Shown here: piece by piece, positions 15,461 to 53,448 of the stretch
How the letters are laid out: each line of letters opens with the position of its first letter
How positions within the stretch are numbered: the stretch's first letter is position 1
NCBI RefSeq assembly: GCF_030704535.1
Contig: NC_081811.1
Location: 2,429,501-2,493,500 of the forward strand
DNA from: Vitis vinifera
Lineage: Eukaryota; Streptophyta; Magnoliopsida; Vitales; Vitaceae
Direction of reading: 5' to 3'
Length of the DNA: 64,000 nucleotides
Notes under the pieces: generated by a model
Told to the model about the DNA's origin: nothing
What the model saw: the letters and a program-made list of their open reading frames with translations, nothing else
The model's database searches: none
Position numbers and translations under genes: made by a program

Positions 15461-17277
15461 TTAACAGTTAGATTTCACGAAATTCTTTATCTCCTCCATG
15501 AGGCAATAGAAGTGATCGTTATTTGGCAAGAAGTAGAAACCTATAGTAGCCTGCTCTAGGAATAAGAGATTCACATCTTGCCCAGCTTTCTTGAGCCCTT
15601 CAACATAAGCCAATTGCCAGTCTTGAACAAGATCAAAACCAGCCACGACAACGAGGCTTTTGGGGAAGTTGAGCCCTTCTAGGCTTTTGCCCCTGGGACC
15701 AAACGGATTACATGCTGGATGATCTCTATCTTCCCCTTCAGGGAGAAAAGCCCTCCAGTACCAATCCCGGTCTTGGATTGTGACAAAGTATTTTCCATCC
15801 AATCTCTTCTCTGATTCAGTTCTCTCTTGCCCACCAAACATTGGGTGAAGGAGGATATTACCCAATACCTCAATACCTGATTCAGCTGCCCTCACTGCAA
15901 CATGATGAGTGATATTGCCACCAGAACTATCTCCGGCCAAGTACACATGAACCTTGGAGTCCTTTCCACTCTGAAGCCATGATCTTGATTTAACCCACTT
16001 AAGAGCTGCCCATCCATCATCATATGCACATGGGTATCGATGTTCGGGTGACCGGCGATAATTCACGGACACCACAACTGCCTTGCAATTCCCCACAAGC
16101 CGGCGGCAAAAATAATCATATATAGCACTATTGGCGGAGGAATGAGTGAAGCTTCCACCATGGAAGAAAAGAATGACAGGTACAATCTCAGTGGTGCTCA
16201 AGGGCTTTTCCAGCTCTATGATCCCCCACTGCGCCTCATTTTCAGGCGCAGGCTGGTAAACCCGGTTGAGAAGACCGGTTGTTTTATCAACGATATCAAA
16301 AGAGAAAACCCCATCAACCGGAAAAGAATTGGCGGGGGCTTTTCGCTCAAGAAACTCCGCCAATTCACGTTCAAAAGTGCCATCTGGCCGGCGAAGGAGA
16401 TTGTATGCTAGCTTGAAATTGGAAATGAGAATCCAAGTATTGAGCGGAACCACCCTCTGCATAGAAACATGGATTGAAGGAATTAGAAGTGCTATTTATC
16501 AATTGCAGTCAACGAAGAGACACAAACCTAAAAACATTAAGCATAAGGTTGATGATCATATGCATCGGTTATATAGAATAACAATTTTGAAAATTCTATA
16601 GAAAATCAACTAACAATCTGAGGGAAAAACAGAAATCCAACGACAAAAAAGGCCAAGAAATGATACAAAGTTGACTGAAAATCACTACAAAACAAGAAAA
16701 ATAAGCAGAGCAATTTCAAAAGAGCTTTAAATCAGAATTCAAACCCTTCAAACTGAAGCTAAAAGAAAGAAGAACGAACAAAAAAATGAACCTTCTGCTC
16801 CAAATTGAACTCATATTCACAAACTTCAACTTTCCAGAACAAGAACAGAAACTCAAAATCAGAAAACATGGAAGAGAGGAAAATCAAATATCGTTGTAAT
16901 TAATAAAAAAATAGAAAAAAAAACATCATAGAAATGTCCAAAAAAATTAAGCTGAGTAGCGACAACAACCCGAAAACACACTAAAATCCCTTCAAATTGA
17001 AGAAAACAATAAGCCTTTCTGCTCCAAATCAGACTTCTGAACCTCCAACTTCCCAGAACCCAAACAACAAACAGCAAAAGAAAAAAAGAAAAGAAAAAAA
17101 AAAGCAAAAAAACTCAAACCCAGTGTCAGAAACATGACAAAAAACTAACGAAACAAACAAAATCAAAGAAACCCATTAACCAAAATCACCATTTGACTTC
17201 AACCCTCGACAGACCAATCAAAAGAGAAGAAGAAATACCTTAGATTCATTGTGGTTGACTTCATCACTCCCGGCCAT
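15461..17277 (-). CDS. GID1B: Gibberellin receptor, GID1B/C type
   Basis: Two exons on the minus strand: 17277-17239 (MAGSDEVNHNESK, 13 codons) and 16456-15461, joined in phase 0 over a 782-bp intron, give 344 residues, the usual GID1 length. The short first exon and the splice just before RVVPLNTW are the family hallmark. The protein is nuclear/cytosolic; it binds bioactive gibberellin, closes its N-terminal lid and recruits DELLA repressors for SCF-driven destruction. Visible: the lid region TWILISNFKLAYNLLRRPDG (about residues 20-40), HGGSF (about 112-116), GDSSGG with the nucleophile Ser at about 191, and FDLVQDW with the Asp. The third catalytic residue, His in active carboxylesterases, is Ile in EQATIGFYFLPNN, so it is a receptor and not an enzyme. 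GID1B versus GID1C cannot be separated here. The ATG is preceded by a purine at -3. Confidence 0.96.
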
Positions 17278-36402: not shown

Positions 36403-36905
36403 ATGAGCTCTGCAGCACCGGCAAAGGGCGGTCGCGGCCACTCCAAGGCCAAATCCGTTTCAAGATCTCAAAAGGCCGGCCTCCAATTCCCCGTCGGTCG
36501 AATAGCTCGGTTCCTCAAAAAGGGCCGATATGCACAGCGCGTTGGGTCTGGCTCTCCGGTCTACCTCTCCGCCGTCCTCGAATACCTCGCAGCCGAGGTA
36601 CTTGAATCTTTCCTTTTCTTCTCTCCGTTTCCGTCATTTTCTCTGGACAAACTTTATTTTGACACTGTTTGCGTTTCTTGTAGGTTTTGGAGCTTGCTGG
36701 AAATGCGGCCAGGGACAACAAGAAGAATCGGATTATCCCGAGGCACATACAACTTGCAGTGAGGAACGATGAGGAGTTGGGGAAACTTCTGGGAGGCGTG
36801 ACTATTGCGAGCGGAGGAGTCTTGCCAAACATTCATCAGAATCTGTTGCCGAAGAAGACCGGGAAAGGGAAGGGAGAGATTGGGTCCGCATCTCAAGAAT
36901 TCTAG
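36403..36905 (+). CDS. Histone H2A.X (unit 1)
   Basis: Exons 36403-36597 and 36684-36905, joined in phase 0 across an 86-bp intron (GAG then GTACTT; TTGTAG then GTTTTG), give 138 residues. The histone fold is complete: [40 protein letters not shown] and the acidic-patch segment [12 protein letters not shown]. The protein ends [10 protein letters not shown], the SQE-phi motif phosphorylated by ATM/ATR at DNA breaks, which defines H2A.X. The L1 loop reads AQRVGSGSP, where unit 2 has AERVGAGAP. It is the first of five H2A units on this strand; its non-coding flanks differ most from the others. Confidence 0.95.
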
Positions 36906-37589: not shown

Positions 37590-38209
37590 ATGAGTTCCTC
37601 AAACAAAGGGGGCAGAGGCAAGCCCAAGGCCACCAAATCGGTTTCCCGATCGGCAAAGGCGGGTCTTCAGTTCCCAGTCGGCCGAATCGCCCGTTTCCTC
37701 AAAGCCGGAAAGTACGCCGAACGTGTCGGGGCTGGCGCTCCCGTTTATCTCTCCGCCGTTCTCGAGTACCTTGCGGCTGAGGTTGGTGTCTTATGTGATC
37801 GTTGGTTGTTTGTTTCTGCTTTGTTTGGTTGCTCGGAAAATGAGTTGAACGTATTGAAATTAAAAACTCGGAGATGAGGTTTTCAGTTAATTCTTTCCAA
37901 TGCCACTGCTTGCCTGAGAAACTGCACTTTGTAGTTTGTTTGTTTTTGATAAATCGTGGATCTGATGTCTGGGTTGTGTATTCACAGGTTCTCGAGCTTG
38001 CTGGCAATGCTGCGAGGGACAACAAGAAGAGTAGAATCGTTCCCCGGCACATTCAGCTTGCTGTGAGGAATGATGAGGAGTTGAGCAAACTACTGGGGAC
38101 GGTTACCATTGCAAATGGTGGTGTATTGCCGAACATTCATCAGAACCTTTTGCCAAAGAAGACGGGGGCAGGGAAGGGAGAAATTGGATCTGCTTCGCAG
38201 GAGTTTTAG
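37590..38209 (+). CDS. Histone H2A.X (unit 2)
   Basis: Exons 37590-37781 and 37988-38209, phase 0, with a 206-bp intron (GAG then GTTGGT; TTCACAG then GTTCTC), give 137 residues. The sequence ([60 protein letters not shown]) is close to Arabidopsis HTA3/HTA5 as I remember them. It ends [10 protein letters not shown], the H2A.X damage-response motif. All acidic-patch residues and LLPKK with the tail lysines are present. This is probably the ancestral-type member: units 3, 4 and 5 resemble it more than unit 1 does. Confidence 0.96.
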
Positions 38210-39420
38210 GTTTTATATTGTGTCGAAGTTTAGTTTTTGAAGTTTTAATATGGTTAAGGATGGGATCTTATGTGTTATTTTTTTTGGTTTTTTGTCTGCT
38301 TGATCCCTGTAAACCCTAGTATTGAAATTTTTTATGATACAAAAAAGAATAACATACATCTTTGGTCATCTTCTTCATTTGATGGTTCTGATTTTTAATA
38401 TAAATGAGATATCTTGCTTCAGAATTTTGTGGGGATTTGTAATACCAAGTCGAGGAGTTGATTAGTGTATTTTATTTTGTGGAACTGTCATAATTGAGAA
38501 TGGTTAATATACTGAATTTTCATGGTTTCAAGATTTTGGATTAGGATCTTCCAAGACATTGCAACGCTTCCATGTGATCCTCTGAAATTTGCGTTTTGGT
38601 TACTTGGGAATAGTGATTTATCATGCTTGTTCTGTTGTATCACAGTCGAGGATAATGTTGATAGGGAGGTAGGAGGTAGGAAATAGGAAGGAATGCTGTG
38701 TACACTACAAAAAAATCTAGGGTTTTTTCCCCTTGTTGGAAGTTTGCAGCCTTGGTTTTGCCATAAAGTTCCTCACTAGCACCTTAGCTCTGTTTCTATT
38801 TGATATGCTTGGCTTATCTGCTTATGTATATTGGAATTATTTTATGTTTCACATTGCCATTGCATTGAATCCAAATCATCTTCAGGTTAGCTACTTAAAA
38901 AGTTATTTCTATTATTTGTGACATCAAATAGTTGGAGCAACTGGGTAATTTAATAGTATCCAGATAATATATTTTACTATCTTTATTGTCTTTCTGTTTG
39001 CTGTTGATGTTTTTTCAAAACTGTGGCTGCCACTTTTTAGCTGATGTTACAGTTAACATTATGATGGATGGTTCTTTATACAAATTGTGAGCTCGTTTAG
39101 TCTATATATATATTTGGCTTTCTTAATTCACTTCTTGTTCATCTGGGACAGATAAGAAGTGGCTTGTGGGTTTTCTGTTGTTCTATAGAGGTCTTCTATG
39201 TTGGTAGCGTGCAATGAATCTTTTGTGTGTGAATTTTACTTGATAGTTCACAATCTTGCTTAGATGATCGTTTTATTATTGCAATTTGATTTTTTCTTTG
39301 CTTCTTTTAATTTGGTTTTTAATCTGTTAAGAGTGTTGTTTCAGATTTATGTCACTTATATTTGCAGTGCTTTTCCCTCCCTTTGAAATATGGTGGCATC
39401 TTAGAAGAAGATTTCAGAAG

Positions 39421-40430
39421 ATGATGTCATTTAATTGTAGGCAATTCTAGTGTTTACAAGGCTGCTGTTCCTCTTGAAGGAATTGGATAAGGCCATTACC
39501 AACCATATATCTTGAAGGTTGCTATTTTGCAAGGAATAAAGTAAGGCCCTCTCCTAAAAATGGAAGAGATTTGCCTTTTATTGGGAGTAGGTTTTGATGA
39601 ATGCTTTGGTACAAATCGCCCAATAATATTAGAACATATTCTAGGAGCTTATTTAAGCCACTATTGCTCCTTATGGCAAATTCAATGTGCCTTGAGACAG
39701 TGTAATTTTTTCTATTGTCCTAGGCTGCATTGCCTGTGAGATTAAGATCTTGTAAACGCACATAACCACATACATCAGATCTAAAATAGACCAAGAACCA
39801 TAATATCGAGTTATTGAAAAACATGAGGAAAGACAAGTTAAAATTGAGATTATTTTGTTTCCTTCCTTATCAAAGAGGGACCCTTAGGGAGCGGGGCTTA
39901 TTTATTGAAAAAGGGGGAGTGAGGAGTAAAGGAAGAAAGAATGGAAGGGGGGGGTAGGAAGGTCTGGAAAGCCCTCGCTTTATTGATGGGACATTTTTAT
40001 CCCCTTCCCTTGTGGCACAAGGATCTTAAAGAATAAGCATGAACTAAATTTAGAGTATAAGAATGCATAATTTGGTTCATATTGAACTTCATGCTCCTAA
40101 AGAGAATGAGAGAATTGTTAACTAATCAATTCGATTATCAGTATATTAAGTGTTATGAACATGTAATTTAAATATTTTTTTTTTATTAGAAACAAACATT
40201 TTAGTACCATGAAATAAGTAAATAGAAAGGATGAAAAATTATTTCCCCAAACACAACCACTACATAACTATGATCAAAAGCAAGAAAAATTAAATGCATA
40301 AGTAAAGGTGGTTATATCTGCAAACTCAAAACTTAAAGGGTTAGAAGATCTAATTTAAATATTTAAAAAGGTTATTAATAAAAAGAGCATGACAATGAAA
40401 AAAGATTTTTTCTTTCGTTTTGGATAGAGA
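39421..40430. other. Spacer between H2A units
   Basis: About 1 kb without a gene, including a purine-rich stretch (GGAGGGGGTGAGG-like, near 39915-39960). Nothing further is recognised. Confidence 0.4.
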
Positions 40431-40751: not shown

Positions 40752-41366
40752 ATGAGTTCTTCAAACAAAGGAGGTAGAGGCAAGCTCAAGGCCTCAAAAT
40801 TGGTCTCCCAATCACAAAAGGCCAGCCTTCAATTTATTGTTGGCCAAATTGCCCATTTCCTCAAAAGTCTGCAAGTAATCTGGTCATGTAGTTCCAATGC
40901 TCCTGTTTATGTATCTGCCTTTCTTGAGTACCTTGCAGTTGAGGTTGCTGTATTATGAGATCACTATGTTGATTGATTCTGCCTTGTTTGGTTGCTTGGT
41001 AAAAGGAATGTAGAGAAATTACTAATTCATGGAATGGAGTTTCACTCAATTTTGTTCAATGCAACTACTTTCCTCAATGATAAAACGTTGTTGTTGGTTG
41101 TTTTGATAAATTGTGGATTTGATACTTAGGGTTATGTGTTCACAGGTTCTCGAACTTTCTGGGAATGTTGCAAGAGCAATAAGAAGAATAGAATTGTTCT
41201 GAGGCACATCCAGCTTGCTGCTAGGAATGACGAGGAGTTGAGAAAACTATTGGGGATGGTAATAATTGCAGATGGGAGTGTTTTGCCTAACATTCATCAA
41301 AACCTTTTGCTGAATAACACTGGGGAAGGGAAAGGAGAGATTGGATCCGCTTTGTAGGAGTTTCAG
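40752..41366 (+). pseudogene. Decayed H2A.X (unit 3)
   Basis: Exons 40752-40943 and 41146-41366 keep the intron position. Exon 1 starts [20 protein letters not shown]. The loop after FLK is scrambled by two compensating single-base indels ([18 protein letters not shown], where unit 2 has [18 protein letters not shown]). In exon 2 one base is lost within NAARDNKK, shifting the frame, and the Gln codon of the SQEF tail is TAG. Many Arg codons became Gln or His (GRIARF to GQIAHF) by CG-to-CA or CG-to-TG change, typical of methylated cytosine loss. It is not translated as a histone; the promoter is also worn. Confidence 0.92.
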
Positions 41367-42301
41367 GGTTTTCATTGTTTGGAAGTTTAGTTTTTGGAGT
41401 TTTAATACGATTAAGGATGAGATCTATTGTGTTATGGGTTTGTCATCTTCTTGATCCTTGGAACCTTAGTTTTGAAAATAAATATGAGATATAGAAAAAT
41501 ATAATACTTCTTTAGACATCTTCTCCATTTGATGCTTTGGTTCCTGATATACATAAAATGTTTTGCTTAAGAACTTTGTGGCTGCTTAAGAACTTTGTGG
41601 CTTTTGTTGGGATTTGTAATACTAATATTATTAGTTGATTATGGTATTTTATGTCATGGAAAAAAAAAAGGACAATTGAAAATGGCTTATATACTAAATT
41701 TTCATGATTTCAATAACCTGGATCATAATCTTCCAGTACATTGTAAACGTTACACTTGATCCGCAGAAATTTGCATTTTGGTGACCTTGGAATGGTGATT
41801 TACCATGGTTGTTCTGTTTTCCAATATTTGAGGCTTGTCGCTGTCATAGTTAAGGATAATGTCGATAGGGAGGTAGGTAATAGGAAGGGATTTTGTGTGC
41901 ACTATCAGAAATCCTAGGGCGCATATCAACTTTTTTCCCCTTTTAGGAAATTTGCAGCCTTGATTTTGCCATAAGTTCCTTTCTGGCATCTTAGCACTGT
42001 TTCTATTTGATATGTTTGGCTTCTCTCCTTATGTGTATTTGAATTATTTTTACTTTTCACATTGTTATTGCATTGAACCCAAATCATCACCTAGTTAGGC
42101 ATGTCAAAAGTATTTCTATTATTTGTTACATCACATAGGTGGAGTTATTGGGTAATTTAAATAGTAGCCATATTTTATATTTTAGGATCTTTGTTGTTGT
42201 TCTGTTTGCTTTTGATGTTTTTTGCAATATTCTGGCTTCTTGTGGGATGGCCAACATTATGGTGGACAATTATTTATATGAATGTGATCTTGTTTAGCCA
42301 A

Positions 42302-43711: not shown

Positions 43712-44311
43712 ATGGGATCTTCTAACTCAAGCATAGCGGGAAAGGCAAGCCAAGGACTTCAATTTCTGGTTGGCTGCATAGCATGATTCCTGAATGCCAG
43801 TTAGTATTCCAAATGCATTACCAGCACTGCTCCTATCTATCTTTTCTTGGTTCTTCATTGGTGGCTGTTCAGGTTGGTACACTGTCAATTATTCTTTTAT
43901 CTAGTTATGTTGTGTACAGTTGTCCACTGAGTGAAAAAAATGAAGAGAAACTGAAGTTTGTGGTTTAAGGTGGCACTCTGTTGGCCCTAAAGTAACCAGT
44001 TTTAGTAGGGCTTTCTTTCTTTTCTTTGCATTTTTTCAGTAACTTAATATTCTAGTTTTTGTTTTATTATATATCATATATTTGATGTGTGTTGGTGCTT
44101 CTAGGTTCTGAACTTATGGGCAACATAGCAAGTGTCAATCAGAAACGTTGCATTGTCTTAGGGCACATTGAGCTTGGTGTTAGGAGCAGTGCTCTTGGCA
44201 GGTGTCACAATATCAAATGATGGTTTTGAGCCAAAACATTCATCAAACCTGTTGCCAAAGGAGGTTGAGAATAGGGAAGGCAAGATTGGATGTTCATCAC
44301 AAGAGCTTTAG
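43712..44311 (+). pseudogene. Heavily decayed H2A (unit 4)
   Basis: Remnants of exon 1 (ATGGGATCTTCTAACTC at 43712, then GGACTTCAATTTCTGGTTGG for GLQFPVG) end at CTGTTCAG before GTTGGT. Exon 2 follows CTTCTAG at about 44105 with GTTCTGAACTT, GGGCACATTGAGCTTGG and, at the end, TCATCACAAGAGCTTTAG. An in-frame stop follows the GCATAGCA stretch, about 40 bases of the core in exon 1 are missing, and part of the acidic-patch segment in exon 2 is gone. The last codons read SSQEL, so it derives from an H2A.X with an SQ tail. Clearly non-functional. Confidence 0.88.
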
Positions 44312-45210
44312 GGTTGTATCTTTAAAGCTTCTGAGACATTTAAATAACACTGGTGGTGTTCTCTCTGTGCTGGCCTTGTTATTATTACAAAAATATCTTT
44401 TTCTTTGGAATTTATTGTCTTGGGTGGGAATAATAAAATTGCTGGCCATCTTCTTCATTATTGTCTTGCTTCTTATTGTAGGTAGAATTTTTTGCTTTGG
44501 AATTATGACTTTGGTGTGATATTATTTAGGTAACAAGTTGATGAATTTCATAGGTTCTTGCTTATCTTGTTTTGTGCAATAATAAGTATATTGGACATGG
44601 TTATGAGAATCTTTGTGGAATCAACTTATAGTTGTTATCAAATTATTTTCCATGGTTCAATTTTTCCCTTTTTAACATGGGAAATTAATGGGTTATTGGA
44701 GGAATAGATACTCTATACAGCATTCACTGACCTGTTAGATGGATCCATATGAATTGCACTGTGCTTTATTGTTTTTGTTCTATGTCCAATACTGATTAGG
44801 TTTTGGCAAACTGGACAAAAGAACGTCAAGTTTGCTGCTTTGGTATTATCAGGCAAGTTCCTGTTTGGCTTCTCATCTCTTTTTTTATCTGATATATACT
44901 CATTGTAGTGTTGAGAAGTATCAAAATTCATGAGTTTGTGCGCAAGTATGATTTCTATTTCATGGAAATCCAGGTCAGTTCAGAGAGTTATCTGATAATC
45001 TAATGGAAGACTTGTATCTATATCTATAATTTATTTTATCATAATAATTGTACTTATGGTGTTATTTCAAAAGCAGCCAATATGTAAAGTGTGGGACCTT
45101 ATTTGCCTTATCTGTCTGCCTGCTGTTTTCATCTGTGCAAAACTTCTATATTGTGCAAGTTGCAAACATGTTCAATGGATATATGTTTTCCTTTTCAAAC
45201 ATACTCTTGT
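44312..45210 (+). other. 3' flank of unit 4
   Basis: This is homologous in part to the 3' flank of unit 5 (about 50170-50400) and of units 2 and 3: AAAAGCAGCCAATATGTAAA, TTATTTGCCTTATCTGTCTG, GGATATATG-TTTTCCTTTTC. The Copia relic begins at its end. Confidence 0.55.
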
Positions 45211-48720: not shown

Positions 48721-49048
48721 TTGTACTTTCTGCTATATATCCCTATTCATTTTCATATTTCTTTTTGTCTTTCTGTCGCTATTTATAAATTACCTTCCAA
48801 TTACTTAGTTATAATTGGATTGATTTGGTTATGAATCTGATCTTATCTTTATTGATGTAAAATCTAATATAAAATTAAATAATAAAATTTTGTACTCAAC
48901 ATTTAATTATATTCATTATTCATGAAGTTATTTCCTTTCCTTTAAGTTATTTAATTTGAATTGCTTCAGTGTGGAGCATAATGTTGCAAGTCTGTTTATG
49001 TGTGGATCCTAGAATGGGAGGTCCACATATTTTCCAATATTTTATGCG

Positions 49049-49118
49049 TCAATTCCACGCTGGAGATTCGTGTCACCCTTCCTCAAATTTATTAAAATCA
49101 ACCTCATTGCGTTATATA
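49049..49118 (+). promoter_or_regulatory. Promoter of the diverged H2A
   Basis: TTCCACGCTGGAGATTCG (compare TTCCGCGCTGGCAATCGG of unit 2) and TATATA at 49113-49118 lie 60-130 bases before the ATG. The module is recognisably the unit-2 promoter, but the CCAAT box of units 1 and 2 is not obvious, and TTCCGCG became TTCCACG. Regulation may differ from the S-phase copies. Confidence 0.5.
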
Positions 49119-49180
49119 CCATCCTCACTAAAAGCCAGCTCTGCCAAACACTGCTCTGATATTCATGGTCTAGGGTTTCG

Positions 49181-49825
49181 ATGAGTTCTTCAAGTTCAAC
49201 CAAGGCAGGTAAAGGAAGATCCAGAGCCTCAGCATCCGTCACCTGTTCTCGGAGAGCTGGACTCCAGTTCCCTGTCGGCCGCATCAGCCGCTTGATAAAG
49301 GATGGAAATTATGCTGAACGTGTCAGCAGGACTGCTCCTGTCTACCTGTCTGCAGTACTCGAATATCTTTCTGCTGAGGTTTGTGTACTGTTAATTTTTT
49401 CTTTTTTAAAAAAGAGAATTTTTTTTTTGTTTGGTTTCTGAAGATATGAGAGGAAATAAAGCACTTATAGATCTCAGGTTTGAGGTTTCACTTAATTGTG
49501 CCTGCAACTATTTTTCCCATGATTTTGATTCCTTTTCCTCTAGTCTCAAACAAACATTGCTGTTTTCCTTTGTTTTATGGATCTGATGCATATGGTTGTT
49601 TGTTTACAGGTTCTTGAACTTGCAGGAAATGTAGCAAAAGATAATCAAAAGGCTCGCATTCTCCCCCGGCATATTGTGCATGCCATGAGGAATGACATAG
49701 AATTATGCAGGCTCTTGGAGAATGTCACAATCGCAGATGGTGGTGTTTTGCCAAATATTGATGAAGACTTTCTGCCTGAGGAGGAGAAAGGGAAAGGCAA
49801 TAGATCTGCTACCGAAGAGCTGTAG
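49181..49825 (+). CDS. Diverged histone H2A variant (unit 5)
   Basis: Exons 49181-49378 and 49610-49825, phase 0, 231-bp intron at the same place as units 1 and 2 (GAG then GTTTGT; TTTACAG then GTTCTT), give 137 residues. The reading frame is fully open despite strong divergence, unlike units 3 and 4. The fold is kept ([38 protein letters not shown]). Changes fall in functional parts: the L1 loop RVGAGAPVY became RVSRTAPVY; the acidic-patch segment AVRNDEEL became AMRNDIEL (one Glu lost); [13 protein letters not shown] became [14 protein letters not shown] (tail lysines lost, acidic); and the SQEF tail became SATEEL. A nucleosome with it should be less able to bind acidic-patch readers, to be ubiquitinated at the tail lysine, or to be marked at DNA breaks; this is inference. 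It could be a new variant or an early pseudogene. Confidence 0.85.
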
Positions 49826-53375: not shown

Positions 53376-53448
53376 GGGGATGTAGCTCAAATGGTAGAGC
53401 GCTCGCTTTGCATGCGAGAGGTACAGGGTTCGATCCCCTGCATCTCCA
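53376..53448 (+). tRNA. tRNA-Ala (anticodon TGC)
   Basis: A 73-base cloverleaf. The acceptor stem GGGGATG pairs with CATCTCC (one G-U), with discriminator A at 53448. The D arm contains GCTC...GAGC, the anticodon stem CTCGC/GCGAG encloses the loop TTTGCAT with anticodon TGC, and the T arm is CAGGGTTCGATCCCCTG. Box A (TAGCTCAAATGG) and box B (GGTTCGATCCC) promoters are intact, and a T-run (TCTTTTTTC) follows as the Pol III stop. No CCA is encoded, as normal in nuclei. Confidence 0.97.

Follow-up and report, generated by a model that had tools for sequence, protein, structure and literature searches.

The window analysed here, a stretch of 64,000 nucleotides of Vitis vinifera DNA (positions 2429501-2493500 of contig C7; the genome searched comprises 495.6 Mb on 21 contigs), carries a tandem set of histone H2A genes on its + strand between 36.4 and 49.8 kb. 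The members of the set, numbered by window position, are as follows.

36403-36905, + strand: unit 1, an intact H2A.X gene (SQEF); exons 36403-36597 and 36684-36905
37590-38209, + strand: unit 2, an intact H2A.X gene (SQEF); exons 37590-37781 and 37988-38209
39570-39779, - strand: a decayed H2A exon-2-like fragment between units 2 and 3, inverted in the array
40752-41370, + strand: unit 3, a pseudogene with frameshifts and stops that groups with unit 2
43713-44312, + strand: unit 4, a pseudogene, placed closest to unit 5 by the 10-sequence tree
49019-49180, + strand: upstream region of unit 5, with motif matches to a TATA-like site at -68 and a CCAAT-like site at -147
49181-49378, + strand: unit 5, a divergent H2A, exon 1 (66 codons); open frame, ending in GAG before GTTTGT
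49379-49609, + strand: intron of unit 5 (231 bp), GTTTGT...TTACAG
49610-49825, + strand: exon 2 of unit 5 including the stop, matching Histone_H2A_C

The spliced frame of unit 5 has 137 codons and a stop, with no internal stop and with intact splice sites. Its exon 1 junction is identical to that of the intact H2A.X genes. All seven other H2A genes found to contain an intron have it at this position, and the intron of unit 5 is identical to that of unit 2 at 111 of 202 aligned bases. The predicted protein scored above the cut-off with the Pfam models Histone (PF00125, 41.5 bits) and Histone_H2A_C (PF16211, 38.6 bits), the latter giving 69.2 bits for unit 2. Among solved structures, 211 chains match unit 5, and the best 60 of them are all named H2A (E 1.6e-48 to 2.6e-42). 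The open frame, conserved splice sites and histone fold that the preliminary description of this DNA had claimed are thus confirmed by the sequence and by the Pfam and PDB matches. The tail has no C-terminal SPKK/KSPK motif of the H2A.W type, and with 137 aa and a docking-domain match the protein does not fall among the short H2As (H2A.B/L/P/Q).

The two sister copies said to have decayed, units 3 and 4, are indeed both broken. The intron of unit 3 is identical to that of unit 2 at 146 of 200 positions. The duplication that gave unit 3 exceeds the gene: window 41371-42223 still matches, in patches and at 75-85%, ~0.8 kb of the 3' flank of unit 2 (38210-39015). The inverted fragment at 39570-39779 shows 38% identity and one TAG (E 1.3e-4).

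All of the residue changes named earlier were found in unit 5. For their positions we use human numbering, which equals the unit 5 residue minus 5, with the register set by the match to solved H2A chains and with human residue numbers that we take to be the standard ones. At the C-terminus SASQEF has become SATEEL, so that the SQ(E/D)-hydrophobic motif that defines H2A.X is gone, and the whole protein contains neither SQ nor TQ. LLPKK has become FLPEE(E), which places Glu at both Lys118 and Lys119, NDEE has become NDIE, which replaces the acidic-patch residue E91 by Ile, and GAGAP has become SRTAP. The last change is real but its placement needs a correction: it falls at residues 44-48, where L1 ends and helix 2 begins, and the L1 self-contact segment NYAE, which we take to be residues 38-41, is intact. 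Likewise, both lysines of LLPKK are lost, as stated, but the first of them is not an invariant H2A.X signature, since Arabidopsis H2A.X.3 has LLPSK in the available part of one source (PMC3380720).

The remainder of the acidic patch (E56, E61, E64, D90 and E92; five of six residues) is kept in unit 5, and Arg is present at 20, 29, 32, 42, 77, 81 and 88. Compared with the human protein, unit 5 has Cys for Arg17 and Gln for Lys74, both presumably DNA-contact positions, as well as Lys for Arg35 and Arg71 and Asp for Lys36. Part of this is not peculiar to unit 5, because Lys at 35 and the absence of Lys at 36 are seen in unit 2 as well. The net charge of the unit 5 protein is +2 vs +12 to +14 in three H2A.X proteins, with 7 Lys residues vs 13-14 and with a net charge of -6 vs +1 or +2 in the last 32 residues.

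A protein of this charge, with Glu at Lys118 and Lys119 and an acidic C-tail, is what directional selection towards an acidic H2A that binds DNA weakly and loosens nucleosomes might produce. However, drift simulated under the codon model brought the net charge down to +2 or below in 24-36% of the runs across nine settings. Acidification therefore needs no directional selection; we rejected the charge shift as a sign of it, do not read it as adaptation, and consider a selected loosener most improbable.

To quantify the constraint on the unit 5 frame, we fitted a branch-specific omega codon model with our own script to 134 codons kept from an alignment of 149, in which silent sites are near saturation. 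When only the eight intact genes were used, the unit 5 branch took an omega of 0.23, 0.21 or 0.29 depending on tree shape, against a background of 0.031; fixing it at 1 gave a 2dlnL of 8.3 and 10.5, but of 2.0 in the third shape. When units 3 and 4 were added at omega 1 with the stem free, which breaks up the long branch, omega was 0.27 for unit 5 and 0.030 for the background. In this 10-gene fit omega=1 was rejected in the main tree (2dlnL 9.9) and in the other placement (9.8), and equality with the background was rejected in the main tree (22.1). In a parametric bootstrap under omega=1, the observed statistic was reached in 0 of 133 completed null sets. The preliminary description had counted a dN/dS near 1 on this branch against its own view; the estimate of ~0.27 and the rejection of omega=1 in the main analysis speak against such a value.

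Not every tree or setting rejects omega=1 as strongly, and dividing the gene also weakens the rejection. Holding the stem at background raised omega for unit 5 to 0.38 and 0.36 and lowered the 2dlnL against omega=1 to 5.2 and 5.3. When the pseudogene branches were freed and all else was kept at background, they took omega values of 0.52 and 0.50 rather than 1, a shortfall without significance in the main tree (2dlnL 1.1). The core alone (91 codons; omega 0.29, 2dlnL 3.3) and the tails alone (43 codons; omega 0.24, 2dlnL 2.6) each lost power, and neither was significant by itself. The likelihood profile within 1.92 lnL extends from ~0.13 to 0.58 (interpolated), and a clock, with unit 5 at the neutral pace of unit 4, would raise omega to ~0.6. 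Constraint is therefore present, but weak. Given the background omega of 0.03, it has been much weakened on unit 5, to about one ninth of that on its relatives.

A second test used no silent sites. Of the 134 codons, 125 are present in all seven other intact H2As, and at these positions 83 residues are invariant and 42 variable across the seven. Unit 5 has changed 17 of the 83 invariant but 27 of the 42 variable positions (p=2.8e-6), whereas the same comparison in the two pseudogenes, which serve as built-in controls, gave 20/81 vs 11/40 for unit 3 (p=0.83) and 30/70 vs 20/34 for unit 4 (p=0.15). Expressed as a difference of log odds, the skew in unit 5 exceeds that in unit 4 (p=0.03) and in unit 3 (p=0.003). 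By codon position, unit 5 differs at 50 of 232 sites at positions 1+2 vs 19 of 33 at position 3, but the same skew was detected in unit 4, more weakly (60/205 vs 14/27, p=0.027), and with CpG sites excluded in unit 3 (12/182 vs 7/32, p=0.012); since both pseudogenes show it too, we give it little weight.

These results bear on the possibility that unit 5 is a neutral pseudogene whose frame was kept by luck. In neutral simulations with substitutions but no indels, the frame stayed free of stops in 3-12% of runs at 0.24 substitutions per site and in 1-5% at 0.36. The earlier argument that an open frame suggests selection is thus weak when it stands alone, although the selection on the protein that it proposed is supported, with the caveats given above, by the branch omega and site-conservation tests. 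Frameshifts, which broke both sisters, would cut the odds of a lucky frame further. The weak rejection of omega=1 under some settings leaves such a pseudogene some room, but the main analysis and its bootstrap reject it, and the site-conservation skew of unit 5 is not significant in either sister. Unit 5 carries no disabling mutation, and neutral evolution is rejected in the main analysis, the strength of that rejection depending on settings. We therefore regard a neutral pseudogene as very unlikely; branch omega and site conservation, which are largely independent of each other, both support selection on the unit 5 protein.

The position of unit 5 among H2A genes was examined with trees. In the 10-sequence tree the partner of unit 5 was the broken unit 4 (ultrafast bootstrap 87), and this pair was joined by units 2 and 3 (79), which displaces unit 2 from the place of nearest partner that it had been given. 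In the 8-sequence set unit 5 fell beside unit 2 under the DNA model (support 47) and beside H2As of contigs C10 and C19 under the codon model (43); both DNA-model trees, like its place in the tandem array, group it with units 2-4. Of two placements outside H2A.X, the AU test under the DNA model rejected one (0.015) and not the other (0.11), and under the codon model it rejected neither (0.17 and 0.16). Descent of unit 5 from inside H2A.X is favoured but not proven.

Another intact H2A.X gene is present on contig C14, from 4340511 onwards. An alpha/beta-hydrolase gene in the window (15464-16462, - strand) has its best match, 80% identical, at C14:4325872-4326870 (- strand), ~14 kb before the C14 H2A.X and in the same strand arrangement as on C7. 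Because of this paired gene near H2A.X on each, C7 and C14 look like duplicated blocks. For a neighbouring ankyrin protein, scoring of 90 out of 253 candidates gave no further match at E 1e-60, and a comparison of the window DNA with 30 kb of C14 gave, besides the H2A genes, four short matches only. In grape, chromosomes 5, 7 and 14 belong to a single triplet of the ancient gamma hexaploidy; contig numbers may differ from chromosome numbers. At third positions unit 5 differs from unit 2 at 78, from unit 1 at 94 and from the C14 H2A.X at 85 of 134 sites, compared with 72 of 134 both between units 1 and 2 and between unit 2 and the C14 H2A.X; CpG loss may inflate the difference of unit 5.

An incomplete relic of the unit 5 lineage was detected at C5:19899460-19899657, which in a DNA search matched unit 5 only, among four genes tested. 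It contains the upstream region and ~30 codons, where the match ends: 123 bp at 72% (49154-49276) and 83 upstream bp at 73% (49019-49098). The residues SVTCSRR are common to the relic and unit 5, and these N-terminal changes probably predate the C5 copy. The unit 5 lineage is probably old, because its third-position difference matches the level seen across blocks and because of the C5 relic.

Unit 5 has a ratio of observed to expected CpG of 0.47. Units 1 and 2 reach 0.91 and 0.89, two other intact H2A genes 0.59 and 0.66, and the pseudogenes 0.17 and 0.09. The depletion in unit 5, midway between live genes and pseudogenes, may record germ-line methylation. It is also what would be expected of a dying gene, one that was long constrained and lost its function recently with the frame still open, in which case an omega of 0.27 averages live and dead time. 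The 17 substitutions where the seven other intact H2As do not vary, which may impair function, point the same way, as do the two broken copies upstream in the same array, the incomplete relic on C5 and the omega near 0.6 under the clock with unit 4. On the other hand, there is no disabling change in the 137 codons or the splice sites, and the changes strongly avoid conserved positions. We consider a recently dead gene possible, though rather unlikely.

Our preferred interpretation, to which we assign a probability of about 0.6, is that unit 5 is a genuine and old H2A paralogue that still codes for protein, likeliest born in the H2A.X array and now outside the H2A.X class. Judged from its sequence, it is probably functional as a divergent H2A, and its function would be altered. 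It shares with plant H2A.X (Arabidopsis HTA3/HTA5; units 1 and 2) the tandem array, the intron position, the MSS start, the overall length and most of the histone core. Unlike them, it lacks the SQ(E/D)-hydrophobic motif and LLPKK and has the E91I change, the net charge of +2 and the weaker constraint.

A protein-level search of the same genome revealed no second gene of the unit 5 type among the 35 matches listed (42 candidates scored). Eight intronless H2A-like matches were seen on C10, C9 and C8, six of them with stops and four of them within ~93 kb on C10. Their appearance is that of processed copies from a different type of H2A gene, one with an intron; as they are similar to the intron-bearing H2As of C6, C8 and C14, we rejected them as retrocopies of unit 5, and they therefore give no evidence for its germline expression. 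The C10 copies read NINPVLLPKK or NINHILLPKK, and the C9 and C8 matches end before that stretch, with RHVL common to them. Matches at C7:17466697, C14:8683219 and C11:8803484 are likewise incomplete fragments of that type and not of unit 5.

If unit 5 is the coding paralogue that we favour, its protein would be expected to pair with H2B and enter nucleosomes, because the core is kept (Arg29, Arg32, Arg42, Arg77 and five of the six acidic-patch residues). The Lys119 equivalent is the site of the PRC1 mark, and its loss should exclude that mark there, so that unit 5 nucleosomes would not be ubiquitinated at this position. Nor would gamma-phosphorylation be possible in them: H2A.X is defined by its SQ motif, according to the accessible parts of two sources (PMC3380720, PMC8208582), and the loss of SQ rules out ATM/ATR-type phosphorylation there. 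The proposed escape from damage marking and from ubiquitination at the Lys119 site thus follows, at the level of sequence, from the loss of SQ, Lys118 and Lys119 together with established knowledge. The proposed escape from acidic-patch readers, in contrast, was overstated given the residues kept. The acidic C-tail and fewer DNA contacts would be expected to loosen the hold on DNA and the linker histone. Arrays with H2A.B, an H2A without the patch, cannot condense, as the available text of PMC7226823 has it; since most of the patch is kept in unit 5, a partial effect is a fair prediction.

Fast-evolving histones offer several points of comparison. The likeness to divergent animal reproductive H2As that had been suggested has a closer counterpart in plants, the male-gamete variant gH2A of lily, for which the part of the source at hand gives E91V, E64D and one change printed as Y56N (PMC10606924) and which is named exclusive to the generative nucleus in an extract of another (PMC8215658). 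Lily gH2A and unit 5 are both divergent plant H2As with a hydrophobic residue at E91 (V in lily, I in unit 5). Unlike lily gH2A, unit 5 keeps E64, and expression is known for the lily protein only. The available portion of PMC3380720 expects fast evolution and polyphyletic origins of plant generative-cell variants, as in the testis variants of animals. Unit 5 also resembles the mammalian short H2As (H2A.B, H2A.L), which are fast-evolving with an altered acidic patch in the part consulted of PMC7226823. However, unit 5 has full length, five of six acidic-patch residues and a docking region kept in altered form, and it is spliced whereas human H2A.B genes are intronless. A third case is H2B.S, a divergent plant histone under relaxed purifying selection, as unit 5 is, whose Arabidopsis member H2B.8 has lost the ubiquitination lysine (excerpt of PMC7410336). 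Unlike unit 5, it belongs to the H2B family, forms its own angiosperm clade and has demonstrated expression in seed and (in Arabidopsis) sperm. Literature searches aimed at the H2A genes of grape gave no paper on them.

Restricted variants such as the seed/sperm H2B.S are known to show weakened constraint; unit 5 may therefore be expressed in few cells, and by this analogy it is probably tissue-restricted. It may form a specialised chromatin in some tissue; a reproductive role is a guess. A bolder version, which we think unlikely, is that the H2A.X duplicate has become a damage-silent and Polycomb-silent H2A of gametes or embryos, with E91 changed independently of lily, as a eudicot counterpart of the animal testis H2As. 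If true, this would be a dedicated gamete or embryo H2A whose nucleosomes carry neither gamma-H2A.X nor the ubiquitin mark on the H2A C-tail. Plant H2A is usually placed in four classes, H2A, H2A.X, H2A.Z and H2A.W. If an H2A.X derivative that lacks the X motif is under constraint, this would show that tandem arrays in plants, as in mammals, give rise to fast-evolving H2As specific to a lineage, and a nucleosome of the unit 5 type would naturally separate damage signalling and ubiquitin marking from packaging.

In the 700 bp upstream of unit 5, a search with motif strings that we take to be representative gave no S-phase hexamer, octamer, E2F or DUO1-like match, and the TATA-like site and CCAAT-like sites were the matches observed. 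A tRNA-Ala (TGC) gene lies ~3.5 kb after unit 5, at window 53376-53448.
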